A stretch of DNA of 64,000 nucleotides, from the NCBI GenBank assembly GCA_036399055.1, contig DASWNX010000021.1, positions 1 through 64,000 of the forward strand, given 5' to 3'. The notes under the pieces were generated by a model, which saw only the letters and a program-made list of their open reading frames with translations, ran no database searches and had not been told where the DNA came from. The DNA comes from Jatrophihabitans sp. Lineage in GTDB: Bacteria > Actinomycetota > Actinomycetes > Mycobacteriales > Jatrophihabitantaceae. The position numbers and the translations under genes were made by a program. Of the stretch, positions 2,400 to 12,202 are shown one piece after another; the first letter of the stretch is position 1, and every line of letters starts with the position of its first letter.

Positions 2400-2916
2400 C
2401 TGCCCCATAAGTTGTCACTGAACTGTCACGGCCAAGCTGCCTAGTCATCGAATTCATTGGATGAAGCCTTTGGGCTTGGGATCGGGCGTGCTGGTCGATG
2501 CCGTCGGGGCGGCCGATGAGGCCTGCGAAGGCCAACTCGGTGTGGGCGTGGCAGTCGGCCAGCACGGTGGCGCCGTCGGTGGACAGCCCGGCCTGCACGA
2601 TCACCTCGGTGCGTCCGGCGTCCGCGGCGAGGTAGTCCTGCACCGCTGCCAGCGGCAGGGTGCCGGTCAGCTCCCGGGTCCTGGCGGCCGGGCCGTCGAT
2701 GGCGTTGGCCCCGGCCACCGCCGCCCCGTCGCAGACGCTCTGCAGGTCACGATGCTGGGTGAAGGCGTCACTGGCCATCACCGCCGCAGCCACCACCAAC
2801 AACCCGATCAGGGAGAATCCGAGGATCAACGGGATGGTCGAACCCCGGTCGTCGTCGATCATCCGTCGAGTCATCCGGCCAGTCGAGGCGCGATCACGCC
2901 GGCGCGGCCGGCTCAT
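2389..2916 (-). CDS. tadG-like pilus assembly protein, copy 2
   Basis: A paralogue of the protein at 7335-7781. It has the Tad-type N-terminus DDRGSTIPLILGF followed by a hydrophobic helix, then ASDAFTQHRDLQSVCDGAAVAGANAID. The start is taken at 2916 because it keeps the ATGA overlap with tadE2 copy 2 that the intact locus also shows. The C-terminus differs: after QHARSQAQ the native copy stops four codons later, while this one reads on for about 25 unrelated residues into the neighbouring island. Without tadA, tadB and tadC in this copy it may be non-functional or may supply an alternative minor subunit. Confidence 0.7.
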   Translation of the reverse strand: MSRPRRRDRASTGRMTRRMIDDDRGSTIPLILGFSLIGLLVVAAAVMASDAFTQHRDLQSVCDGAAVAGANAIDGPAARTRELTGTLPLAAVQDYLAADAGRTEVIVQAGLSTDGATVLADCHAHTELAFAGLIGRPDGIDQHARSQAQRLHPMNSMTRQLGRDSSVTTYGAATR

Positions 2917-3362
2917 CGGGCGATGATCCGGAAGTCGTCGACGTGCACCAGATACCGACCGATGATTGTCACTCCGCGCCCGGACAGCAGGGTGGGAACC
3001 GCCGGCAGCGGCTGATGCCTGACCACGCAGACCGCGAACACCGACGCCGGAGCCAGCGACGGCACCGAGGCCGGGCCCCGGCAATCCGCGCCAGCCTCGA
3101 CGTAGCGCACCTGCACCTCGGCCGGCGTCAGGCCCTGACCGCGCAAGGCAGCCCGCAAGGCAGCCTGCGCCCGGACCTCGGCCTGCGCGGCAGTGTCCGA
3201 CGTGGCGATCGCCCGGCCGACGTCGCGGGCGGCGTTGGTGGTCGCCAGCCGGCCGCGCTGCACCACCGCGACCGCCACGATCAGGTAGATCAACGGCACC
3301 AGCACCAGCACCGCCACGAAGACGATCGCGCTCCACGACGGACGCGCTCCCTTTGCTGCCAC
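2913..3362 (-). CDS. tadE2-like pilus protein, copy 2, altered N-terminus
   Basis: Almost identical to residues ~30-161 of the tadE-like protein at 7778-8263 (shared stretches include LIYLIVAVAVVQR, TNAARDVGRAIATSD and VQVRYVEAGADCRGPA). The junction lies near 3340: upstream of FVAVLVL the native SAIIEF context is replaced by a short unrelated stretch, and the only start in frame is a GTG at 3362 with no good ribosome site. The membrane helix is kept. It is probably the truncated left part of a gutted tad copy and may no longer be expressed. Confidence 0.65.
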   Translation of the reverse strand: MAAKGARPSWSAIVFVAVLVLVPLIYLIVAVAVVQRGRLATTNAARDVGRAIATSDTAAQAEVRAQAALRAALRGQGLTPAEVQVRYVEAGADCRGPASVPSLAPASVFAVCVVRHQPLPAVPTLLSGRGVTIIGRYLVHVDDFRIIAR

Positions 3363-3438
3363 GGCGTAGTGGACCTAGTGTTCCTGTCCTGTCCGTCGGC
3401 ATTGGCACCCTTACCGACGGACACCGAAGGAGGACGCA

Positions 3439-3642
3439 GTGATCTCGATGCTCTTGGCCCTGCTGCACCGCAGAAAGACCGGACACCGGATCTGGCGCGA
3501 GGAGATGATCTGGTCAGGCGAGCGGGCGATGGTCTGGTTCTGCGAGTGCCAGAAGCAGTGGCACCCGCTCTCGCAGCCCGGTCCCTATCCGGACGGCAGG
3601 GACCCGATCCACAGGGAGCCGCCCTGGGAGCGGGAGAAGTGA
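3439..3642 (+). CDS. small hypothetical protein (67 aa)
   Basis: The GTG start is preceded at ideal spacing by AAGGAGG, one of the best ribosome sites in the left part of the window, which supports a real gene. The product begins MISMLLALLHRRKTGHRIW and contains a C-x-C pair (FCECQ) and a Trp/Pro-rich acidic tail. The next gene starts inside its stop codon (GTGA overlap). The pair points toward the convergent four-gene operon and sits at the breakpoint of tad copy 2, so it probably belongs to the inserted DNA. No family recognised. Confidence 0.6.
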   Translation: MISMLLALLHRRKTGHRIWREEMIWSGERAMVWFCECQKQWHPLSQPGPYPDGRDPIHREPPWEREK

Positions 3643-3809
3643 CCACGTCCCTCCGGGTGCTCGGCTACGTGCGCGAGCGCGGATGCCCATGGAAGGGCAA
3701 CCCCGCCCGCTGCCCGTGGCGCAGCACCGAGGCAACCCGCGACGACGACCACGCCTGGGACGCTCCGCGAGGGTACGCCCGGCATCGCGGGGACCGCCGC
3801 AGGTACTGA
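3639..3809 (+). CDS. small basic hypothetical protein (56 aa)
   Basis: It starts with GTG overlapping the stop of the previous gene by four bases, the tight coupling typical of co-translated actinobacterial genes. The product (MTTSLRVLGYVRERGCPWKG...) has two Cys-Pro-Trp motifs (CPWKGNPARCPW) spaced as a possible metal-binding or DNA-binding knuckle, and ends in an Arg/His/Asp-rich tail. No family recognised. With its partner it could be a small accessory or regulatory unit of the inserted element. Confidence 0.5.
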   Translation: MTTSLRVLGYVRERGCPWKGNPARCPWRSTEATRDDDHAWDAPRGYARHRGDRRRY

Positions 3810-3846
3810 GAAAACGGGGTCGCGTGGACACTTCCGCTGGCCCGAG

Positions 3847-5115
3847 TTAGGGGGAACGCAGCACCGATGCCCATCGGCCCAGGTACTCCAGTGCGGGGAG
3901 CGAATCCAGAACCAGGTTTCCCGAACTGGCGGCCACGGCACGGTCCCGGGCGTCTTCCAACTGGTCCGCGATGTCAGCTAGCGGAGTTGCAGCCGTCAGG
4001 TCGAGTTCCCACTTCCGCGCCAGAGCGAAGTGCCGCTTGAGGTCGTGGTAGGGCAGGGAGGCAATCGACTGACCCGTCGCTCGCCAGTCAGCGCACGCAT
4101 CACATGGACACGCGAATGACAGGTCCACCGATTCAAGGACAGCCGCAACCGCCGGGGACATGAAGAGGTGAAGGTCTCGCACGTAGTACCGCGGAGGTGC
4201 AGCGCCGGTCGACGCCAGCGCGGGCCAATCGCGAGACTCGCTATACGTAAGTCCGTTTCCGAAGCCGCGAAGACCTGCGTGGCGCATACAGATGCTAAAG
4301 AAGCCCCCGTACAAGTTGACGAGCCGTCGACCGTCAGGTCGGTTGGCGATCACATTCCACAACGCGCGCAGTTGCGACTCGTTGACCTTTCGCTCATCGA
4401 AGTTCGTGATCCAGAAGAAGGCGATCTTCGAGAGCGCAGGCGGCAGCAGCGGCAGGATCTCGGCGAGCGTGGCCACGCCGTCCGCGTTCTCTTTAGGGCG
4501 TCCATCAAGACACAGAACGGGCATGATCTTGTCCGGTTGCGGAAGCGAAGAAGCAGCCGCCCACACTTCCTGCATGACAGTCCACCAGGGGTCCGACGTG
4601 CCGGAGACCGCGAAGTACGGTGCGAGGATGGCGTACGGCGGCATGGCATTCGTGGTCGGAGCGGGGGCCCCCTGCTGCTGCATCGCTTCCGCCAACAAGG
4701 CGGCATAGCGATCCAGCTTCTTCTTCACGACGGGCGCGTGACCCGCGTAGGTCCGCTGCCTGTCGACGATCTCGCCAACGAGTTCACCGACCACTGCGGG
4801 GGTGTAGAAGGTTGGGTCGAGGGAGGCGGTCCCACTTGCGACGGCCGAGTGAACGGTTGGGCCGTGCCACTCAGCGAGGGTGATGTGAGATGCGCGAGGG
4901 TCATCGATGTCCCCTTGAAACAGGGGCGTGCGCGGGTCGATCAAATATTGCAGCTGGCTCGACAGGACGAACGCAGCGGTCGCCTCCTGGTAGTAGGACG
5001 CGATCGTGCCCGGCACGGTCATCACGTGAAAGGTGCCCTGGACAGCGATGTTTCGGAAACTAGCCTGATCGCTGTTTCCGTAGGCCATTAAGTGACGGAA
5101 AGGCATCTGGTTCAC
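3847..5115 (-). CDS. TGT-like (tRNA-guanine transglycosylase-fold) protein, fourth gene of candidate defence operon
   Basis: This 422-residue protein starts at GTG 5115, overlapping the upstream stop as GTGA. The middle shows an alternating strand/helix pattern typical of a TIM barrel (KIAFFWITNFDE 230-241, LVNLYGGFFSICM 265-277, GFGNGLTYSESRDWPAL 284-300, RYYVRDLHLF 309-318). It is followed by C336-P-C338-D-A-C341 and later histidines (H357, H362). The CxCxxC-xn-H arrangement after the barrel is how tRNA-guanine transglycosylases and the DNA-modifying DpdA family bind structural zinc. This is inferred from pattern only. No queuosine or 7-deazaguanine synthesis gene is visible nearby. Its operon partners include a nuclease-like protein, so a role in base modification or modified-base sensing is plausible but unproven. 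Confidence 0.6.
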   Translation of the reverse strand: MNQMPFRHLMAYGNSDQASFRNIAVQGTFHVMTVPGTIASYYQEATAAFVLSSQLQYLIDPRTPLFQGDIDDPRASHITLAEWHGPTVHSAVASGTASLDPTFYTPAVVGELVGEIVDRQRTYAGHAPVVKKKLDRYAALLAEAMQQQGAPAPTTNAMPPYAILAPYFAVSGTSDPWWTVMQEVWAAASSLPQPDKIMPVLCLDGRPKENADGVATLAEILPLLPPALSKIAFFWITNFDERKVNESQLRALWNVIANRPDGRRLVNLYGGFFSICMRHAGLRGFGNGLTYSESRDWPALASTGAAPPRYYVRDLHLFMSPAVAAVLESVDLSFACPCDACADWRATGQSIASLPYHDLKRHFALARKWELDLTAATPLADIADQLEDARDRAVAASSGNLVLDSLPALEYLGRWASVLRSP

Positions 5116-5633
5116 ACCCCCCGCATCAGCGCGGCTACGGATTCCGTGCCTCGCGCTCTCATCGACGTGAGCTGGTCAAGAGTCTTCTGGCGTAGCGCCG
5201 AGTCGGGATTCGCGGGAGTAGCAGCAATGACTACATGCAGCCACTTCTGGTCGACAGCGAGGACACCCACGCCCTGACCCCAGCAAGCGTCTATCACTGC
5301 GTCGGTGACCTTATAGGCCGGGAGAGCGATCATCGACAGGTCGACGCTGAAGCGGTTCAGAACTGCCTGACGCAGCGCCCGTTGCCAACTTGCGAGTTTC
5401 GCTTCAATCCCTACCACGACGTCGGGTGAAGAATCATGGAGGTCGCGAACGGCGACACAGACATCAGTTCGAGCCCGCCCATGCGACTTAACCTCGAACC
5501 CCACGGCTCGAAGTGGCCATTGAGCTCTCATCCTCCGTGCGAGCTGATCGACCAGCGCCGCCTCTGAGATGTGGCGAGCGGGACGCGGCGCCGGTGGAAC
5601 GAAAGCGCGGGCGGGGTATGCCACGAGCGTCAT
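5112..5633 (-). CDS. PD-(D/E)XK nuclease-like protein, third gene of candidate defence operon
   Basis: Start chosen at ATG 5633 because it overlaps the upstream stop as ATGA; longer starts would run into the membrane-protein gene. The 173-residue product has the layout of a small PD-(D/E)XK domain: helix with a conserved Glu (E47 in GFEVKS), D57 in RTDV, then VVVGIEAKL (E77, K79) on the next strand, and Q89 in a following helix (WQRALRQA). D-x19-E-x-K fits a metal-dependent nuclease core and resembles Holliday-resolvase/restriction-type domains. The rest (VLAVDQKWLHVVIAATP) continues the sheet. Function is inferred from these residues and from the gene neighbours; I could not assign a named family. 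Confidence 0.65.
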   Translation of the reverse strand: MTLVAYPARAFVPPAPRPARHISEAALVDQLARRMRAQWPLRAVGFEVKSHGRARTDVCVAVRDLHDSSPDVVVGIEAKLASWQRALRQAVLNRFSVDLSMIALPAYKVTDAVIDACWGQGVGVLAVDQKWLHVVIAATPANPDSALRQKTLDQLTSMRARGTESVAALMRGV

Positions 5634-6277
5634 CGCGTCGAACCTCCCGAGTTCCGTGCCATGCGAGCCAGGCCAGAAAGATAGTTGCTTTCGCGTACCG
5701 AGCCGAGCGCTTCGGCGCCGATCCACCCCAGCGACCCGGCGAGCACGAACAGAGCCACCAGCGACAGGGGAATCGGGAAGTCAACCGATGGCATGCACAG
5801 CGAGAACCCGAAGTACACCCATGCCAGCAAGAAGACGAACGCTGCGCACCCGATCCTCTTCGCATGACCGACGCGACGGTCATGGACCGACTGCGCGCGG
5901 TGGATCACCGCGTAGTGCGACTCAAGTTCAGCGTACGAGTCGAAGAACTTCGGGTTGGCACCGAGAACGCGCCGCGTGTCGATCTCCGGGTCACCCGGCT
6001 CCCCCGGGAGGAAGCGCTTCTTGGTGAAATCCACGTAAGGCTGTATGCGAACAATCACCGATGCCAGGATCGGACGAACGTTGTCCGTCAGGACCCCATC
6101 CCGAACTTCAGCCACATCGTCGCCGCAGTCCTTCAGGATCCGCGACTCCGCAGTGAACGCGCGCACGATGGCCGTGATGGCGGTGATCGATACCGGGATG
6201 ATGAGGCCCATCCAGCCGAGTTGTAGTTCCGGACCGCTACCGCCCTTGGCAGCAGCCGCCACGACCAACGCGTTCAC
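5630..6277 (-). CDS. three-helix membrane protein, second gene of candidate defence operon
   Basis: A GTG start overlaps the stop of the Panacea-like gene (GTGA), and its own stop overlaps the nuclease-like start (ATGA). The 215-residue product has one hydrophobic helix at about 22-40, a large polar domain (about 45-138, probably cytoplasmic and rich in charged residues), and a hairpin of two helices at about 142-161 and 169-187. This arrangement is common for small effector or sensor membrane proteins in defence operons. No sequence family is recognised. Confidence 0.7.
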   Translation of the reverse strand: MNALVVAAAAKGGSGPELQLGWMGLIIPVSITAITAIVRAFTAESRILKDCGDDVAEVRDGVLTDNVRPILASVIVRIQPYVDFTKKRFLPGEPGDPEIDTRRVLGANPKFFDSYAELESHYAVIHRAQSVHDRRVGHAKRIGCAAFVFLLAWVYFGFSLCMPSVDFPIPLSLVALFVLAGSLGWIGAEALGSVRESNYLSGLARMARNSGGSTR

Positions 6278-6813
6278 GCGTACCGGTGGGCGATCACCGA
6301 ATTCTTTGCCGAGTCCGGGTAGGTCTTGTACACGTACCTGATCAGACCAGATAAGGAGCGGGCCGCATATCGATCCTTGATCGCGGACAACTGCTCGGCA
6401 ACCGCCGGGTGATGGTGCGCCAAGAGGTCGGCGACGAGGTGCCCATGCTCTGTCAGCACGAACCGCCGCTCCACGTACTCGTCTGCCTCGACTGCGCCGG
6501 TGACGTTGACGTCTTCCATGCTGTCGATCGTTTGCCCATCGACGACACGTTCTTCCGTGAGCAGCCCGGACTCCTCCAGCAGTTCGACAGCCTCGTAGAC
6601 GTCTTTCGAGAAAGGACCATAGTTGTAAGCCTTAAACTCGAGTTGCTCGCCCGCGACGCTGTCCGCGACGGACGTTTCCTTCTCAACCAGGTACAGCAAC
6701 TTCTCAAGACGCGTGATGCCGTTGACCCGATTCTTGGCACTGGCAACGTTCGTCGGCGCGGCCAAGAGCATCAGCACGAGGTCGCTACCTTCGAGCGAGT
6801 CTGCGAGCGCCAT
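6274..6813 (-). CDS. Panacea-domain (DUF4065/SocA-like) protein, first gene of candidate defence operon
   Basis: This 179-residue protein carries the hallmarks of the Panacea/DUF4065 group: ITRLEKLLYLVEKE at 33-46, then FKAYNYGPFSKDVYEA at 60-75 and LLEESGLL at 78-85, with a basic C-terminal helix. Members are antitoxins or adaptor-like proteins in phage- and toxin-related loci. Start ATG 6813. It is the promoter-proximal gene of four genes joined by successive 4-base overlaps, so the products are probably made together. It could neutralise or regulate the downstream membrane and nuclease-like proteins. Confidence 0.7.
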   Translation of the reverse strand: MALADSLEGSDLVLMLLAAPTNVASAKNRVNGITRLEKLLYLVEKETSVADSVAGEQLEFKAYNYGPFSKDVYEAVELLEESGLLTEERVVDGQTIDSMEDVNVTGAVEADEYVERRFVLTEHGHLVADLLAHHHPAVAEQLSAIKDRYAARSLSGLIRYVYKTYPDSAKNSVIAHRYA

Positions 6814-6964
6814 GCGCGTCCCCTTCCGTGGCTATGTTCCGTCAGCCGACTCTAGTCCGCTTCGGGCAAGTGGGATGCTTCAGCATCCCACCGACAACCG
6901 GACGCAAGGGTCAGGCGCGCGAGGTGCTCGTCCTGGGAGTATGTTACGTCTTGCGAATTAGAGG

Positions 6965-7233
6965 CGGGCTCGTTGATCCAGATCTCCTCGACCGCCCGGT
7001 CGTCGAAGTACTGCTGCAACGGCCCGAAGCCGGCCACCTGATCGAACACGGCGCGGCCGCGGCCTCGGCGTCACCCAGCGGCGGCAACGCCGACATAGCG
7101 GCCCGGTCCAGGTAGTCGATGAGCACCTCATCGACCAGCCGACGGGTCGCCTCGGGCTCCAGCACCGGGTCCACTGCCTGCGGCGCACCAGCTCGCGGAC
7201 CTCGCCCTCCACGATCGACTGCGCGCCCGGCAC
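6965..7233 (-). pseudogene. truncated, frameshifted tadA 5' fragment (copy 2)
   Basis: On the minus strand the fragment reads AQSIVEGEVRELVRRRQ, then after a frame change DPVLEPEATRRLVDEVLIDYLDRAAMSALPPLGDA, then after a second change FDQVAGFGPLQQYFDD and EEIWINEP. These match residues ~6-92 of the TadA ATPase encoded at 10818-12107. Homology ends at EEIWINEP, long before the Walker A site, and unrelated sequence leading to the four-gene operon follows. Upstream bases (about 7234-7310) also resemble the tadA upstream region at 12108-12175, so the duplication included the promoter side. Confidence 0.85.
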
Positions 7234-7334
7234 TGCTTACCCCCGGTAGGCGTCAAGAGCAACGCGAGAAAGCTTAACGGCCCAATGCGCGTTCTGCCGC
7301 TTAAGGCTCGAATTCTGGAACCATCACGCTGCTT

Positions 7335-7781
7335 TCATCGGACGATGCCCTGGGCTTGGGATCGGGCGTGCTGGTCGATGCCGTCCGGGTGGCCGATGAG
7401 GCCCGCGAAGGCCAACTCGGTGTGGGCGCGGCAGTCGGCCAGCACGGTGGCGCCGTCGGCGGACAGCGCGGCCAGCACGCTCACCTCAGCACGTCCGGCG
7501 TCCGCGGCGAGATAGCTCTGCACCGCTGCCTGCACCGCTGCCAGCGGTAGCGTGCCGGTCAGCTCTCGGGTCCTGGCGGCCGGGCCGTCGATCGCGTTGG
7601 CCCCGGCCACCGCCGCCCCGTCGCAGACGCTCTGCAGGTCTCGCTGCTGGGTGAAGGCGTCACTGGCCATCACCGCCGCCGCCACCACCATCAACCCGAT
7701 CAGGAAGAACCCGAGGATCAACGGGATGGTCGAACCCCGGTCGTCGGCGAACTTCGGGCGAGGCCGTGGGTCGCGGCTCAT
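7335..7781 (-). CDS. tadG-like pilus assembly protein (Rv3654c-like)
   Basis: The last gene of the intact tad locus encodes 148 residues. After a short basic leader comes DDRGSTIPLILGF, the entry to a single N-terminal membrane helix (about 16-35), then a pseudopilin-like domain with VCDGAAVAGANAI. Such proteins are minor components or tethers of the Flp pilus secretion machine, anchored with the bulk outside the membrane. Its ATG overlaps the tadE2 stop as ATGA. Two partial copies of this gene lie at 2389-2916 and 125-275. Confidence 0.85.
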   Translation of the reverse strand: MSRDPRPRPKFADDRGSTIPLILGFFLIGLMVVAAAVMASDAFTQQRDLQSVCDGAAVAGANAIDGPAARTRELTGTLPLAAVQAAVQSYLAADAGRAEVSVLAALSADGATVLADCRAHTELAFAGLIGHPDGIDQHARSQAQGIVR

Positions 7782-8263
7782 CGGGCGATGACCCGGAAGT
7801 CGTCGACGTGCACCAGATAGCGGCCGATGACGGTCACCCCGCGCCCGGACAACAGGGTAGGCACCGCCGGCAGCGGCTGATGTCTGACCACGCAGATCGC
7901 GAACACCGACGCCGGCGCCAGCGACGGCGTCGTCGCCGGGCCTCGGCAGTCCGCGCCGGCTTCGACGTAGCGCACCTGCACCTCGGCCGGAGTCAGACCC
8001 TGACCGCGCAAGGCGGCCCGCAACGCGGCCTGCGCCCGAACCTCGGCCTGCGCGGCAGTGTCCGACGTGGCGATCGCCCGCCCGACATCGCGGGCGGCGT
8101 TAGTGGTCGCCAACCGGCTGCGCTGCACCACCGCGACCGCCACGATCAGGTAGATCAACGGCGCCAGCACCAGCACCGCCACAAAGACGAACTCGATGAT
8201 CGCGCTGGCCTGCTCACCCGTGCGCCGCAGCTCGTCGAACCGTCGCTGTAGGAGTGATCTCAC
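7778..8263 (-). CDS. TadE-family minor pilin
   Basis: Start taken at GTG 8263, which overlaps the previous stop as GTGA; 161 residues. A TadE signature is present near the N-terminus (GEQASAIIEF before a long hydrophobic helix, FVAVLVLAPLIYLIVAVAVV), followed by a periplasmic/extracellular domain with two cysteines (ADCRGP and AICVV). TadE proteins are processed pseudopilins needed for Flp pilus assembly. The locus order (ATPase, two TadB/TadC proteins, Flp-like, TadE, TadE, TadG-like) is that of actinobacterial type IVb pili. Confidence 0.85.
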   Translation of the reverse strand: MRSLLQRRFDELRRTGEQASAIIEFVFVAVLVLAPLIYLIVAVAVVQRSRLATTNAARDVGRAIATSDTAAQAEVRAQAALRAALRGQGLTPAEVQVRYVEAGADCRGPATTPSLAPASVFAICVVRHQPLPAVPTLLSGRGVTVIGRYLVHVDDFRVIAR

Positions 8264-8676
8264 GGGTCGTCCTTGAGTGACTGCCCGCTGACATCGACTC
8301 TCACCAGCGCGCCGATCGGCAGGAAGACCGATCTGATCGTCCCCCGGCATCGCACCTCGGCGGTCACCAGACCGCTGCCAACCTCAGCGACCAGGCCTCC
8401 TGCGCAGGGCAACCGCCGAGCCATTCCCGGGCTCAGCGCCTGGCTCAGCAACGCCGCGGCGCGCTCACCGCCGGCCTGCGCCGGCACACCGGCGTTCGCG
8501 GCATAGCGGGCCCCGTCAGCAGCCGCCGCCGAGGCCACCGACCGGACGTAGAACACCGCCGCGACCTGCACCACCGCGAACAGAAGCATCACCAGCAGCA
8601 CCGACATCAAACAGAATTCGGCCACAGCGGAGCCGCGATCATCGGTCAGGCTCCGCGCCCTACGGCGATCGGCCAC
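8260..8676 (-). CDS. TadE-family pilus protein
   Basis: A GTG start at 8676, only five bases after the Flp-like gene. The 138-residue product begins with a basic stretch and DDRGSAVAEF, the typical TadE processing region, then a hydrophobic helix (CLMSVLLVMLLFAVVQVAAVFYV) and a compact extracellular domain with two cysteines (LPCAGG, EVRCRG) likely paired. It probably acts as a minor pilin priming or stabilising the Flp fibre. Confidence 0.85.
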   Translation of the reverse strand: MADRRRARSLTDDRGSAVAEFCLMSVLLVMLLFAVVQVAAVFYVRSVASAAAADGARYAANAGVPAQAGGERAAALLSQALSPGMARRLPCAGGLVAEVGSGLVTAEVRCRGTIRSVFLPIGALVRVDVSGQSLKDDP

Positions 8677-9958: not shown

Positions 9959-10816
9959 TCATCGCAACACCCTGGGCTCTTCGGGCAGCCGGCCGATCCG
10001 CACCATGATCCGGTATGCCAGCAGGCACACCGCCGCGCCGATGCCCAGCAGCAGCACGCCGCCGGAGGAGTCGAAGGTCTGCAGCGTCGAGGACTGGGTT
10101 CCCAGCAACAGCAACACGATCCACGGCGCGGCGACCGCGAGCCGGGCCGCGCTGACCGTCCAGCCCTGACGGGTCTCCAACTCGGCGCGGGTCCGCGCGT
10201 CGGCTCGCAGCAGCTCCGACAGCGTGCGCAACACGGTGCCGAGATCACTGCCACCCACCTCGCGAGCCACCCGCAGCGTCTCGCACACCCGGTCCCCCAC
10301 CGGGTCGGCCAGGTCGTGCTTCAACGCGTTCAGGCATTCGGCGAACCGGCCGCTTGCGCGGTAGGAGACGCCGAACCGCGCGAACGCCGGGCGCAACGGC
10401 TCCGGCCCGCGGACACCGAGGCCGGACACCCCTTCAGGCAGGGACATTCCGGCCCGGACGGCTGAGGCGAGGTTGTCGATGGCCTCAGGCCACAGCTCGC
10501 GCAGCGCGACCTGGCGGCGCTGGCGCATCCGCCGCACGACAGCCAGCGGCCCGAGAAAGGCGAACACGGTGAAGCAGGCGGCGACGGCCAGGGTTCCGGT
10601 GATCAGCTGCACGAGCAACCCGGCCAGCGCCGCCGAGATCACCTGCAGGCTGAGCAGCTGCGCCGAGCTGACCGACTCGACGCCGGCCTGCCGGATCAGC
10701 TCGTCCCGGCGCGTCGACCAGCCCAGACGAGCCGGGTCGCGCCGCGGCGCTCGAGGACCGCTGCGCCAGATCAGCAGCAAGCCGACGCCCGCGAGCAGGC
10801 CGATGAATGCGCCCAT
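9959..10816 (-). CDS. tadB: TadB-type pilus assembly membrane protein (GspF domain)
   Basis: Start at ATG 10816, one base after the tadA stop; an upstream in-frame start would overlap tadA. The 285-residue product has an N-terminal helix (GAFIGLLAGVGLLLIW), two central helices (about 75-110), a cytoplasmic T2SSF domain (LPEGVSGLGVRGPEPLRPAF; REVGGSDLGTVLRTLSELLR), and a C-terminal pair of helices (WIVLLLLG ... GVLLLGIGAAVCLLAYRIM). It is the platform partner of TadC. Confidence 0.9.
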   Translation of the reverse strand: MGAFIGLLAGVGLLLIWRSGPRAPRRDPARLGWSTRRDELIRQAGVESVSSAQLLSLQVISAALAGLLVQLITGTLAVAACFTVFAFLGPLAVVRRMRQRRQVALRELWPEAIDNLASAVRAGMSLPEGVSGLGVRGPEPLRPAFARFGVSYRASGRFAECLNALKHDLADPVGDRVCETLRVAREVGGSDLGTVLRTLSELLRADARTRAELETRQGWTVSAARLAVAAPWIVLLLLGTQSSTLQTFDSSGGVLLLGIGAAVCLLAYRIMVRIGRLPEEPRVLR

Positions 10817-10817
10817 C

Positions 10818-12107
10818 TCAGGCTCTCGCCCGTGCGGCGCCGGCGGCCATGGCCGGAGCGCCACGGTCTGAGCGCTCGTCCTGCCCGAGCAGCTCGGCCA
10901 GGTCGTGACCGGCCTGCTCGTAGCGCTCTTGATGCGGCGGGTAGCCGTCGCCGCGACGCAGTCGGCCCTGCCGGTGACCGAAGATCTCCGACGTCTCGAT
11001 CACCTCGCCCTCGGCCCGTCCGGTGACCGCGACGATCTCGCGGACCCGGCGCTGACCCCGGTGGTCTGCGCCCAGGTGCACCACCAGGTCGACCGAGGCG
11101 GCAACCGTCGGAACGACGAACGCGGCGCTGACGTTCTCACCGGCCAGCAGCGGCAGGGTGCACATCTTCACCAGCGCCTCCCGGGCGGAGTTGGCGTGCA
11201 GCGTGCACATGCCTGGCAGTCCGGAGTTCAGCGCGATCAACAGGTCCAGGCACTCCTCCTGCCGGACCTCGCCGACGATGATCCGGTTGGGACGCATCCG
11301 CAGCGCCTCTTTGACCAGCCGGCGCAGGGTGATCTCACCGGTTCCCTCCAGGTTGGGCTGCCGGGTCTGCATCGACACCACGTCGGGCAGCGGCACCTGC
11401 AACTCGAACACTTCCTCGGCAGTGATCACCCGCTCGGTGGCCGGGATCGCCGCGCACAGCGCGTTGAGCATGGTGGTCTTGCCGGCCTGGGTGCTGCCCG
11501 ACACCAGCACGTTCAGCCCGGCGGCGACCGAGGCCTCCAGGAAGCGGGCCGCCTGCTCGGGCAGCGACCCCAGCCGGACCAGCTCGTCCAGGCCGGCGAC
11601 GCCGATCACGAACTTGCGGATGTTGACCGCCATATGCAGACGGGTGATGGACGGGATGACGACGTGCAACCGGGAGCCGTCGGGCAGTTGCGCGTCGACG
11701 AAGGGCGCGCTGAGATCGAGGCGGCGACCGGACAGGCGCAGCATCCGCTCGACCAGGTCGGCGACCTCGTCGCTGGTGAGGATGACCGTGGTCAGCTGGG
11801 AGCGGCCGTGCCGGGCGATGAACACCCGGCCGGGCTCGTTGATCCAGATCTCCTCGACCGCCGGGTCGTCGAAGTACTGCTGCAACGGCCCGAAGCCGGC
11901 CACCTGGTCGAACACGGTGCGGGCAGCGGTCTCGGCATCACCGAGCGGCGGCAGCGCTGACATCGCGGCCCGGTCGAGGTAATCAGTGAGCACCTCGTCC
12001 ACCAGCCGCCGGGTCGCCTCCGGCTCCAGCACCGGATCGAGCTGCCGGCGGCGCACCAGCTCGCGAACTTCACCCTCGACGATCGACTGCGCGGTCGCCA
12101 CCCTCAC
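10818..12107 (-). CDS. tadA: TadA/CpaF secretion ATPase
   Basis: This 429-residue type II/IV secretion ATPase has an N-terminal helical domain, a Walker A at about 203-212 (SGSTQAGKTT), an Asp-box/Walker B region (RIIVGEVR about 275-282) and the His box TLHANS (about 302-307). It powers assembly of the Flp pilus by TadB/TadC. GTG 12107 is used; a GTG two codons later is possible. It heads the seven-gene minus-strand operon. No CpaE/Ssd-like gene is visible upstream, where the family's M. tuberculosis locus has one. A frameshifted 5' copy is at 6965-7233. Confidence 0.92.
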   Translation of the reverse strand: MRVATAQSIVEGEVRELVRRRQLDPVLEPEATRRLVDEVLTDYLDRAAMSALPPLGDAETAARTVFDQVAGFGPLQQYFDDPAVEEIWINEPGRVFIARHGRSQLTTVILTSDEVADLVERMLRLSGRRLDLSAPFVDAQLPDGSRLHVVIPSITRLHMAVNIRKFVIGVAGLDELVRLGSLPEQAARFLEASVAAGLNVLVSGSTQAGKTTMLNALCAAIPATERVITAEEVFELQVPLPDVVSMQTRQPNLEGTGEITLRRLVKEALRMRPNRIIVGEVRQEECLDLLIALNSGLPGMCTLHANSAREALVKMCTLPLLAGENVSAAFVVPTVAASVDLVVHLGADHRGQRRVREIVAVTGRAEGEVIETSEIFGHRQGRLRRGDGYPPHQERYEQAGHDLAELLGQDERSDRGAPAMAAGAARARA

Positions 12108-12202
12108 CCCCGGTCGGTTCCAAGATCAACCGGGGCAGCTTAAACGACCGATTGCGCAGCCTTGCGCTTAGAGACGGATTTGTGGATAACCATCCAAGAG
12201 AG

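Follow-up and report, generated by a model that had tools for sequence, protein, structure and literature searches.

Four overlapping genes carried by a Jatrophihabitans sp. contig belong to what is apparently an undescribed gene system of defense-type character that is found in other bacteria and in archaea too. Three of the genes form a core that is kept together in bacteria and archaea: g1, encoding a Panacea-like protein; g3, encoding a PD-(D/E)XK nuclease-fold protein; and g4, encoding a protein with the fold of tRNA-guanine transglycosylases (TGTs). The fourth, the membrane protein gene g2, occupies a slot whose content is exchangeable. Dozens of toxins are paired with antitoxins that carry the Panacea domain (PMC10440598), and a Panacea-type family with constant nuclease-fold and TGT-fold partners offers a concrete candidate for a sensing or targeting part. 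The features below are given in coordinates of the window, i.e., the whole 64,000-nucleotide stretch analyzed.

6274..6813, minus strand: g1, Panacea/SocA-like protein (ATG start, 179 aa)
5630..6277, minus strand: g2, membrane protein with three hydrophobic segments (GTG start, 215 aa)
5112..5633, minus strand: g3, PD-(D/E)XK nuclease-fold protein (ATG start, 173 aa)
3847..5115, minus strand: g4, TGT-fold protein (GTG start, 422 aa)
4030..4110, minus strand: zinc-type site of g4, codons C336, C338, and C341 to H362
3326..6964, no strand: operon-bearing segment flanked by the two parts of an incomplete tad-locus copy (window self-BLAST)

A sequence-only reading had described four minus-strand open reading frames (ORFs) joined by 4-base overlaps; their coordinates were re-found, and the junctions read GTGA, ATGA, and GTGA. 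Its view of the genes as one unit was borne out by Arthrobacter sp. AK-1 plasmid pSI-1, where the same order recurs with overlaps of 4, 1, and 1 bases, so that the window ORFs are not a product of chance. The proposed location inside a tad-locus copy (gene names assigned by eye) likewise agreed with self-BLAST, which placed repeat pairs on both flanks: 6965-7303 repeats 11831-12170 (85%), 2453-3325 repeats 7334-8190 (88%), and the insert between these tad-type pieces measures 3.6 kb. GC content was 62.3% in the operon versus 68.7% in 7300-64000, and GC3 was 0.66-0.78 in its genes versus 0.90 in two tad-type genes; together with the repeat-flanked site and the failure to find g4 in the 8 other genomes of the host genus, this fits acquisition of the operon from elsewhere. 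The tad-type stretch is present in three copies or fragments at or near the contig start (126-274, 92-93%; 2453-3325; 7334-8190), a duplicated region at which the assembly may break, and a direct repeat at the contig edge (1-59 identical to 55-113) may be an assembly end artifact. Two plus-strand ORFs also lie nearby: one of 469 aa (990-2399), whose start looks signal-like and which contains a run of prolines, and a small one of 67 aa (3439-3642) in the gap that separates the operon from the tad-type copy, possibly within the inserted segment.

Window g4 was found alone, as the window's own copy, in 1 of 397 genomes of the order sample and, with a 4-row profile, in 1 of 394 genomes of the class sample. 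Phage records held no g4 relatives, viral contigs scanned for g4 and also for Panacea gave none, and neither did a first g4 scan of genome contigs. That window g4 might be an orphan was nonetheless overturned by plasmid records, a Panacea-led scan of genome contigs, and a 10-row g4 profile applied to the phylum. Among plasmid records, tblastn with g4 matched a single one, pSI-1 (29%, E 1e-30), whose locus (L003) holds four hypothetical genes in window order; BLASTP between window and plasmid gave 7.9e-31 for g1, 3.4e-8 for g3, 2.0e-39 for g4, and only 0.029 for g2, whose counterpart, at 200 aa, resembles it in length and in hydrophobic layout. Searches with Panacea and g4 yielded three Haloarcula plasmids (L004, L006, and L011) with the order g1-g3-g4 and no slot-2 gene. 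The Panacea-led scan gave 17 loci, in 10 of which g3 and g4 adjoin the Panacea-like gene (in 7 they do not): Solirubrobacterales (L013), two metagenome-assembled genomes titled only bacterium (L014 and L016), Chloroflexi (L015), Opitutaceae (L017), Heimdallarchaeota (L018), Halovenus (L019), Omnitrophota (L020), Phycisphaerales (L022), and Halorubrum (L024, with g4 broken), where host names are only as reliable as binning because most of these loci come from metagenome bins. In Halorubrum (L024, 7915-9412), g4 stops after 108 codons and is followed by an ORF that, by eye, resembles a transposase. Across 396 genomes of the phylum, the 10-row profile made three matches: the window's own, a partial and weak one of 19.6 bits (G059), and a long one with an E value of 4.6e-54 (G968), at which Panacea (2e-39) and PD-(D/E)XK (7.6e-18) genes lie directly upstream of g4 (L054).

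The order g1-(x)-g3-g4 thus stands in 15 other loci, counting the one with the broken g4; L003 and L054 were first found by g4 alone. Two outcomes had been named beforehand as refuting: predicted structures lacking a nuclease or TGT core, and homologues that never co-occur. The structure models show a nuclease-type fold for g3 and a TGT fold for g4, and g1, g3, and g4 were found together in these 15. Pairwise distances were correlated between g1 and g3 (r 0.83, n=11, reached by 1 of 20000 permutations), g1 and g4 (r 0.88, n=10, reached by 2 of 20000), and g3 and g4 (r 0.82, n=10, reached by 0 of 20000), correlations that may partly reflect species relatedness. For g2 against the other genes (n=8), r was 0.83, 0.88, and 0.71, values reached by 2, 10, and 42 permutations.

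The assignment of g1 as Panacea/DUF4065-like held in part: a Pfam match to SocA_Panacea (PF13274) exists (E 0.0024, 19.2 bits), but it falls under the curated cut-off of 25.7, and the best score among four g1 relatives scanned was 25.4 bits (P0009). PADLOC model PDC-M19A matched 11 of 11 aligned g1 rows, Specificity_I also matching 10 and DarG also 7. Kurata et al. name the plasmid-borne Haloarcula g1 homologue WP_049938427.1 (L004) among DUF4065 proteins and describe Panacea antitoxins as counteracting membrane-depolarizing toxins (PMC8832971); a sensor role has been proposed for Panacea, and PIN toxins are reported in its network (PMC10440598). We presume that g1 is an antitoxin or a sensor. 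In g2, hydrophobic windows (Kyte-Doolittle) lie at 20-38, 144-162, and 169-187, and no family was matched in Pfam, PADLOC, or NCBIfam. The proposed three-helix membrane protein keeps its three hydrophobic segments, but it stands outside the invariant core: slot 2 holds a membrane protein of g2-like hydrophobic layout in eight relatives (L003, L013-L017, L020, and L022), a PIN protein in one (L018, Heimdallarchaeota; PF13470, 1.7e-12), and nothing in six (L004, L006, L011, L019, L024, and L054). Such contents are as expected of an exchangeable effector, which g2 is presumed to be, and, with slot 2 empty in 6 of 15 relatives, g1 is not solely a neutralizer of whatever that slot encodes.

The residues named beforehand in g3 (D57 and E77-x-K79) and in g4 (C336/C338/C341) are all at their claimed positions. 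The predicted PD-(D/E)XK-like character of g3 was corroborated by a structure model with a restriction-endonuclease-like fold and by a D...E-x-K motif: all 11 aligned rows share D57, E77, and K79, along with Q89. When a 4-row alignment took in two archaeal g3 proteins, E77, K79, and Q89 stayed invariant and D57 did not. The best fold matches include the named enzymes PaqCI and NucS/EndoMS, which act on DNA. A g3 profile run against PDB sequences gave no nuclease among its matches, and g3 is small, with no evident separate DNA-binding domain. The sce7726 family (NF033832) resembles g3 relatives in sequence, with matches in 5 of 11 rows at E values up to 0.1, yet these lie under the cut-off (P0007: 2.5e-07 and 30.8 bits, where the cut-off is 70 bits), and window g3 had no match to NF033832. 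The pair sce7725/sce7726, considered as a candidate parent of the operon, was set aside: no g4-, g3-, or g1-profile match occurred within about 1.5 kb of 4 sce7726 loci of the class.

The structure model of g4 has a TGT fold, and all 50 fold matches among those listed are TGTs, the nearest being the archaeosine TGT 1iq8. Foldseek against the PDB gave no E value below 0.001 (the best, 1.3e-3, was a TGT), its top 20 also holding barrels of other kinds, HypD and malate synthase among them, and against viral models it again gave none below 0.001. No Pfam family, PF01702 included, matched g4 at E values up to 5, and hhalign against 3 TGTs returned a probability of 0.2%, which leaves the fold and the alignment of the zinc-type site as the basis of the TGT link; the joint MAFFT alignment of g4 with TGTs is unreliable in the barrel. 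The C-x-C-x2-C...H site aligns with the Cys and His residues of 1iq8 (sequence profile, E 0.02). Of the 15 full-length g4 proteins, 13 have all three Cys, the exceptions being P0008 and L014. Of the earlier description of g4 as TIM-barrel/TGT-like with a CxCxxC site, the fold and the site in the window are therefore upheld, but the site is not universal. TGTs use a catalytic Asp nucleophile, in an FDC motif after strand 8. Not a single column of the 10 aligned g4 rows has an invariant Asp: D175 and E241 are each retained in 9, and D60, which we presumptively place at the D102 strand of Zymomonas mobilis TGT, is Asp in 8 and Glu in 2. The g4 stretch after strand 8, which would map to the TGT nucleophile region, reads G281-L-x-G-x-x-x, with position 286 being G, S, S, C, N, N, S, V, V, and V in the 10 rows, and the conserved acid nearest to it, E293, is Leu in 2 of 10. 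Given the missing invariant Asp and this motif mapping, g4 is TGT-like in fold and probably not in base-exchange chemistry; another chemistry is possible, in view of D175 and E241.

These features bear on three other explanations. In a Dpd-kind restriction-modification system, g4 would label host DNA as self by incorporating a deazaguanine, and DNA without that label would be cut by g3. A TGT fold does adjoin a PD-(D/E)XK protein here, and DpdA, a TGT homologue, belongs to the Dpd system, which guides restriction; TGTs are also described in proposed BREX-related systems, in a source whose available portion makes no mention of Panacea (PMC12839542). However, the operon differs from Dpd in its Panacea-like and membrane proteins and in the lack of a conserved catalytic Asp, D175 being kept in most rows although never invariant; g1 to g3 gave no DpdB/DpdC-like match in Pfam, PADLOC, or NCBIfam (operon only); and an exchangeable slot is unsuited to a plain self mark. 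The preQ0 supply is doubtful as well, since tgt (PF01702) was found in 0 of 13 host-family genomes, some of them incomplete (all 14 controls were positive), and QueC in the family amounted to a 55-position match of 22 bits, just above cut-off. With marking by g4 set back by the lack of an invariant Asp and by the host-family sample in which no tgt was found, we regard this explanation as quite improbable. The TGT fold could instead serve a tRNA-targeting toxin complex, recognizing an anticodon loop while g3 cleaves the tRNA; antiviral action, if there is any, would then be secondary. TGTs act on tRNA anticodon loops, and the listed fold matches, all of them TGTs, and the slot-2 PIN protein in L018 speak for this, while the DNA substrates of PaqCI and NucS/EndoMS speak against it; it strikes us as rather unlikely.

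A plain Panacea toxin-antitoxin pair of g1 and g2, with g3 and g4 as unrelated hitchhikers, would account for the adjacency of g1 and g2, and Panacea is already known to partner with toxins of the membrane type (PMC8832971). Retention of g1, g3, and g4 in the six relatives without a slot-2 gene and replacement of g2 by a PIN protein in L018 argue otherwise, and we consider such a pair unlikely. PanAT systems resemble the operon in having a Panacea-like first gene, overlapping genes, and a partner that varies and may be either a membrane protein or a nuclease; in contrast, what stays constant beside g1 in the operon is a PD-(D/E)XK protein together with a TGT-fold one, and the operon comprises four genes, or three where a separate slot-2 gene is lacking. 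The toxin-antitoxin prediction of Kurata et al. was kept to loci not suggesting operons of more than three genes (PMC8832971), a restriction to two-gene or at most three-gene arrangements that would leave out the four-gene form in the window and its eight membrane-gene relatives. TGT proper (PF01702, 1iq8) shares with g4 the barrel fold and the zinc-type site; it differs in that g4 lacks a PF01702 match, an invariant Asp and hence a conserved nucleophile, and, in 2 of 15 proteins, the zinc-type Cys. The main text of PMC8832971 contains none of the terms queuine, transglycosylase, and sce7726, and the available portion of PMC10440598 does not mention the first two. The earlier statement that no described defense system with this combination was known was matched by the open-license PMC literature (articles without their supplements), in which no description of Panacea, membrane, nuclease, and TGT-fold proteins together was found.

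The neighborhoods of the relatives point toward conflict. Of the 15 loci, 12 were covered by PADLOC scans of 19 flanking proteins that were hand-picked as large, near, or annotated; convincing defense genes lay within 1.5 kb in 8 of these 12, a raw count. They comprise a type IIG enzyme 18 bases after g4 (L014), a DrmMI/type IIG-like methylase 66 bases before g1 (L011), a SIR2 protein 99 bases after g4 (L006), a type II enzyme 112 bases before g1 together with a cytosine methylase (L019), Ppl (L016), a PifA-like KAP NTPase (L017), Cas6 (L018), and, furthest of the eight, a DrmC-like PLD protein (L020). Defense neighbors were weak or dismissed in L013, where a subtilase (IetS, 9.7e-07) was left out of the count, and in L022, where the PADLOC call of mad2 at 10795-11922 was left out because Pfam gives MraW; the scanned flanking proteins of L003 and L024 included none. 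In L054, 17 bases after g4, the product of 7120-8316 carries what we take, by eye, to be a SIR2-like motif; it compares with the L006 SIR2 protein at a BLASTP E value of 0.021, and phmmer against the PDB returned nothing. An MT-A70-like methylase was noted by eye before g1 of the same locus.

Supported by these neighboring genes, a predicted role in defense or conflict is very probable. The fuller reading, that this is a mobile conflict operon and most likely an antiviral defense that damages or stops the infected cell, we regard as evenly poised. For the specific guided-nuclease mechanism our confidence falls somewhat short of even. Under that mechanism g4 would bind nucleic acid through its TGT fold and zinc-type module and not swap bases, its target being an RNA loop, as for TGTs, or altered DNA, and it would position the g3 nuclease. 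Until infection altered what g1 or g4 senses, g1 would keep both this complex and the additional effector silent, the latter being g2 in the membrane here and PIN in a Heimdallarchaeon; upon release, g3 would cleave nucleic acid and g2 would disrupt the membrane, with a presumably abortive outcome. More tentatively, and leaning against it ourselves, we raise the idea of a guided immune nuclease of a new class, one that is either ancient or has spread widely across bacteria and archaea: a non-exchanging TGT fold would do the recognizing for a PD-(D/E)XK nuclease, with Panacea as the switch and a plug-in killing slot filled by a membrane protein, PIN RNase, or SIR2-type enzyme, where the trigger could be a phage-altered tRNA anticodon or a modified phage-DNA base. 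If true, bacteria and archaea, a Heimdallarchaeon among them, would have converted the TGT fold into an immune subunit that exchanges no bases.

Several minor observations accompany these results. The host family may lack queuosine, given that tgt was not found in the 13 of its genomes examined, some incomplete. Two ORFs are related to the middle of g4: a partial one on the host's own contig C26 (L053, 1057-2406; 33 bits), with no g1 or g3 profile match in its 3.5 kb, and another in a different genome of the host order (L052, 1063-2463; 18 bits), with none nearby; they are perhaps a separate chromosomal family. A distant Panacea-like gene (L029, 2879-4219) is followed 3 bases on by an ORF resembling Ntn-hydrolase by eye, a possible different Panacea partner.
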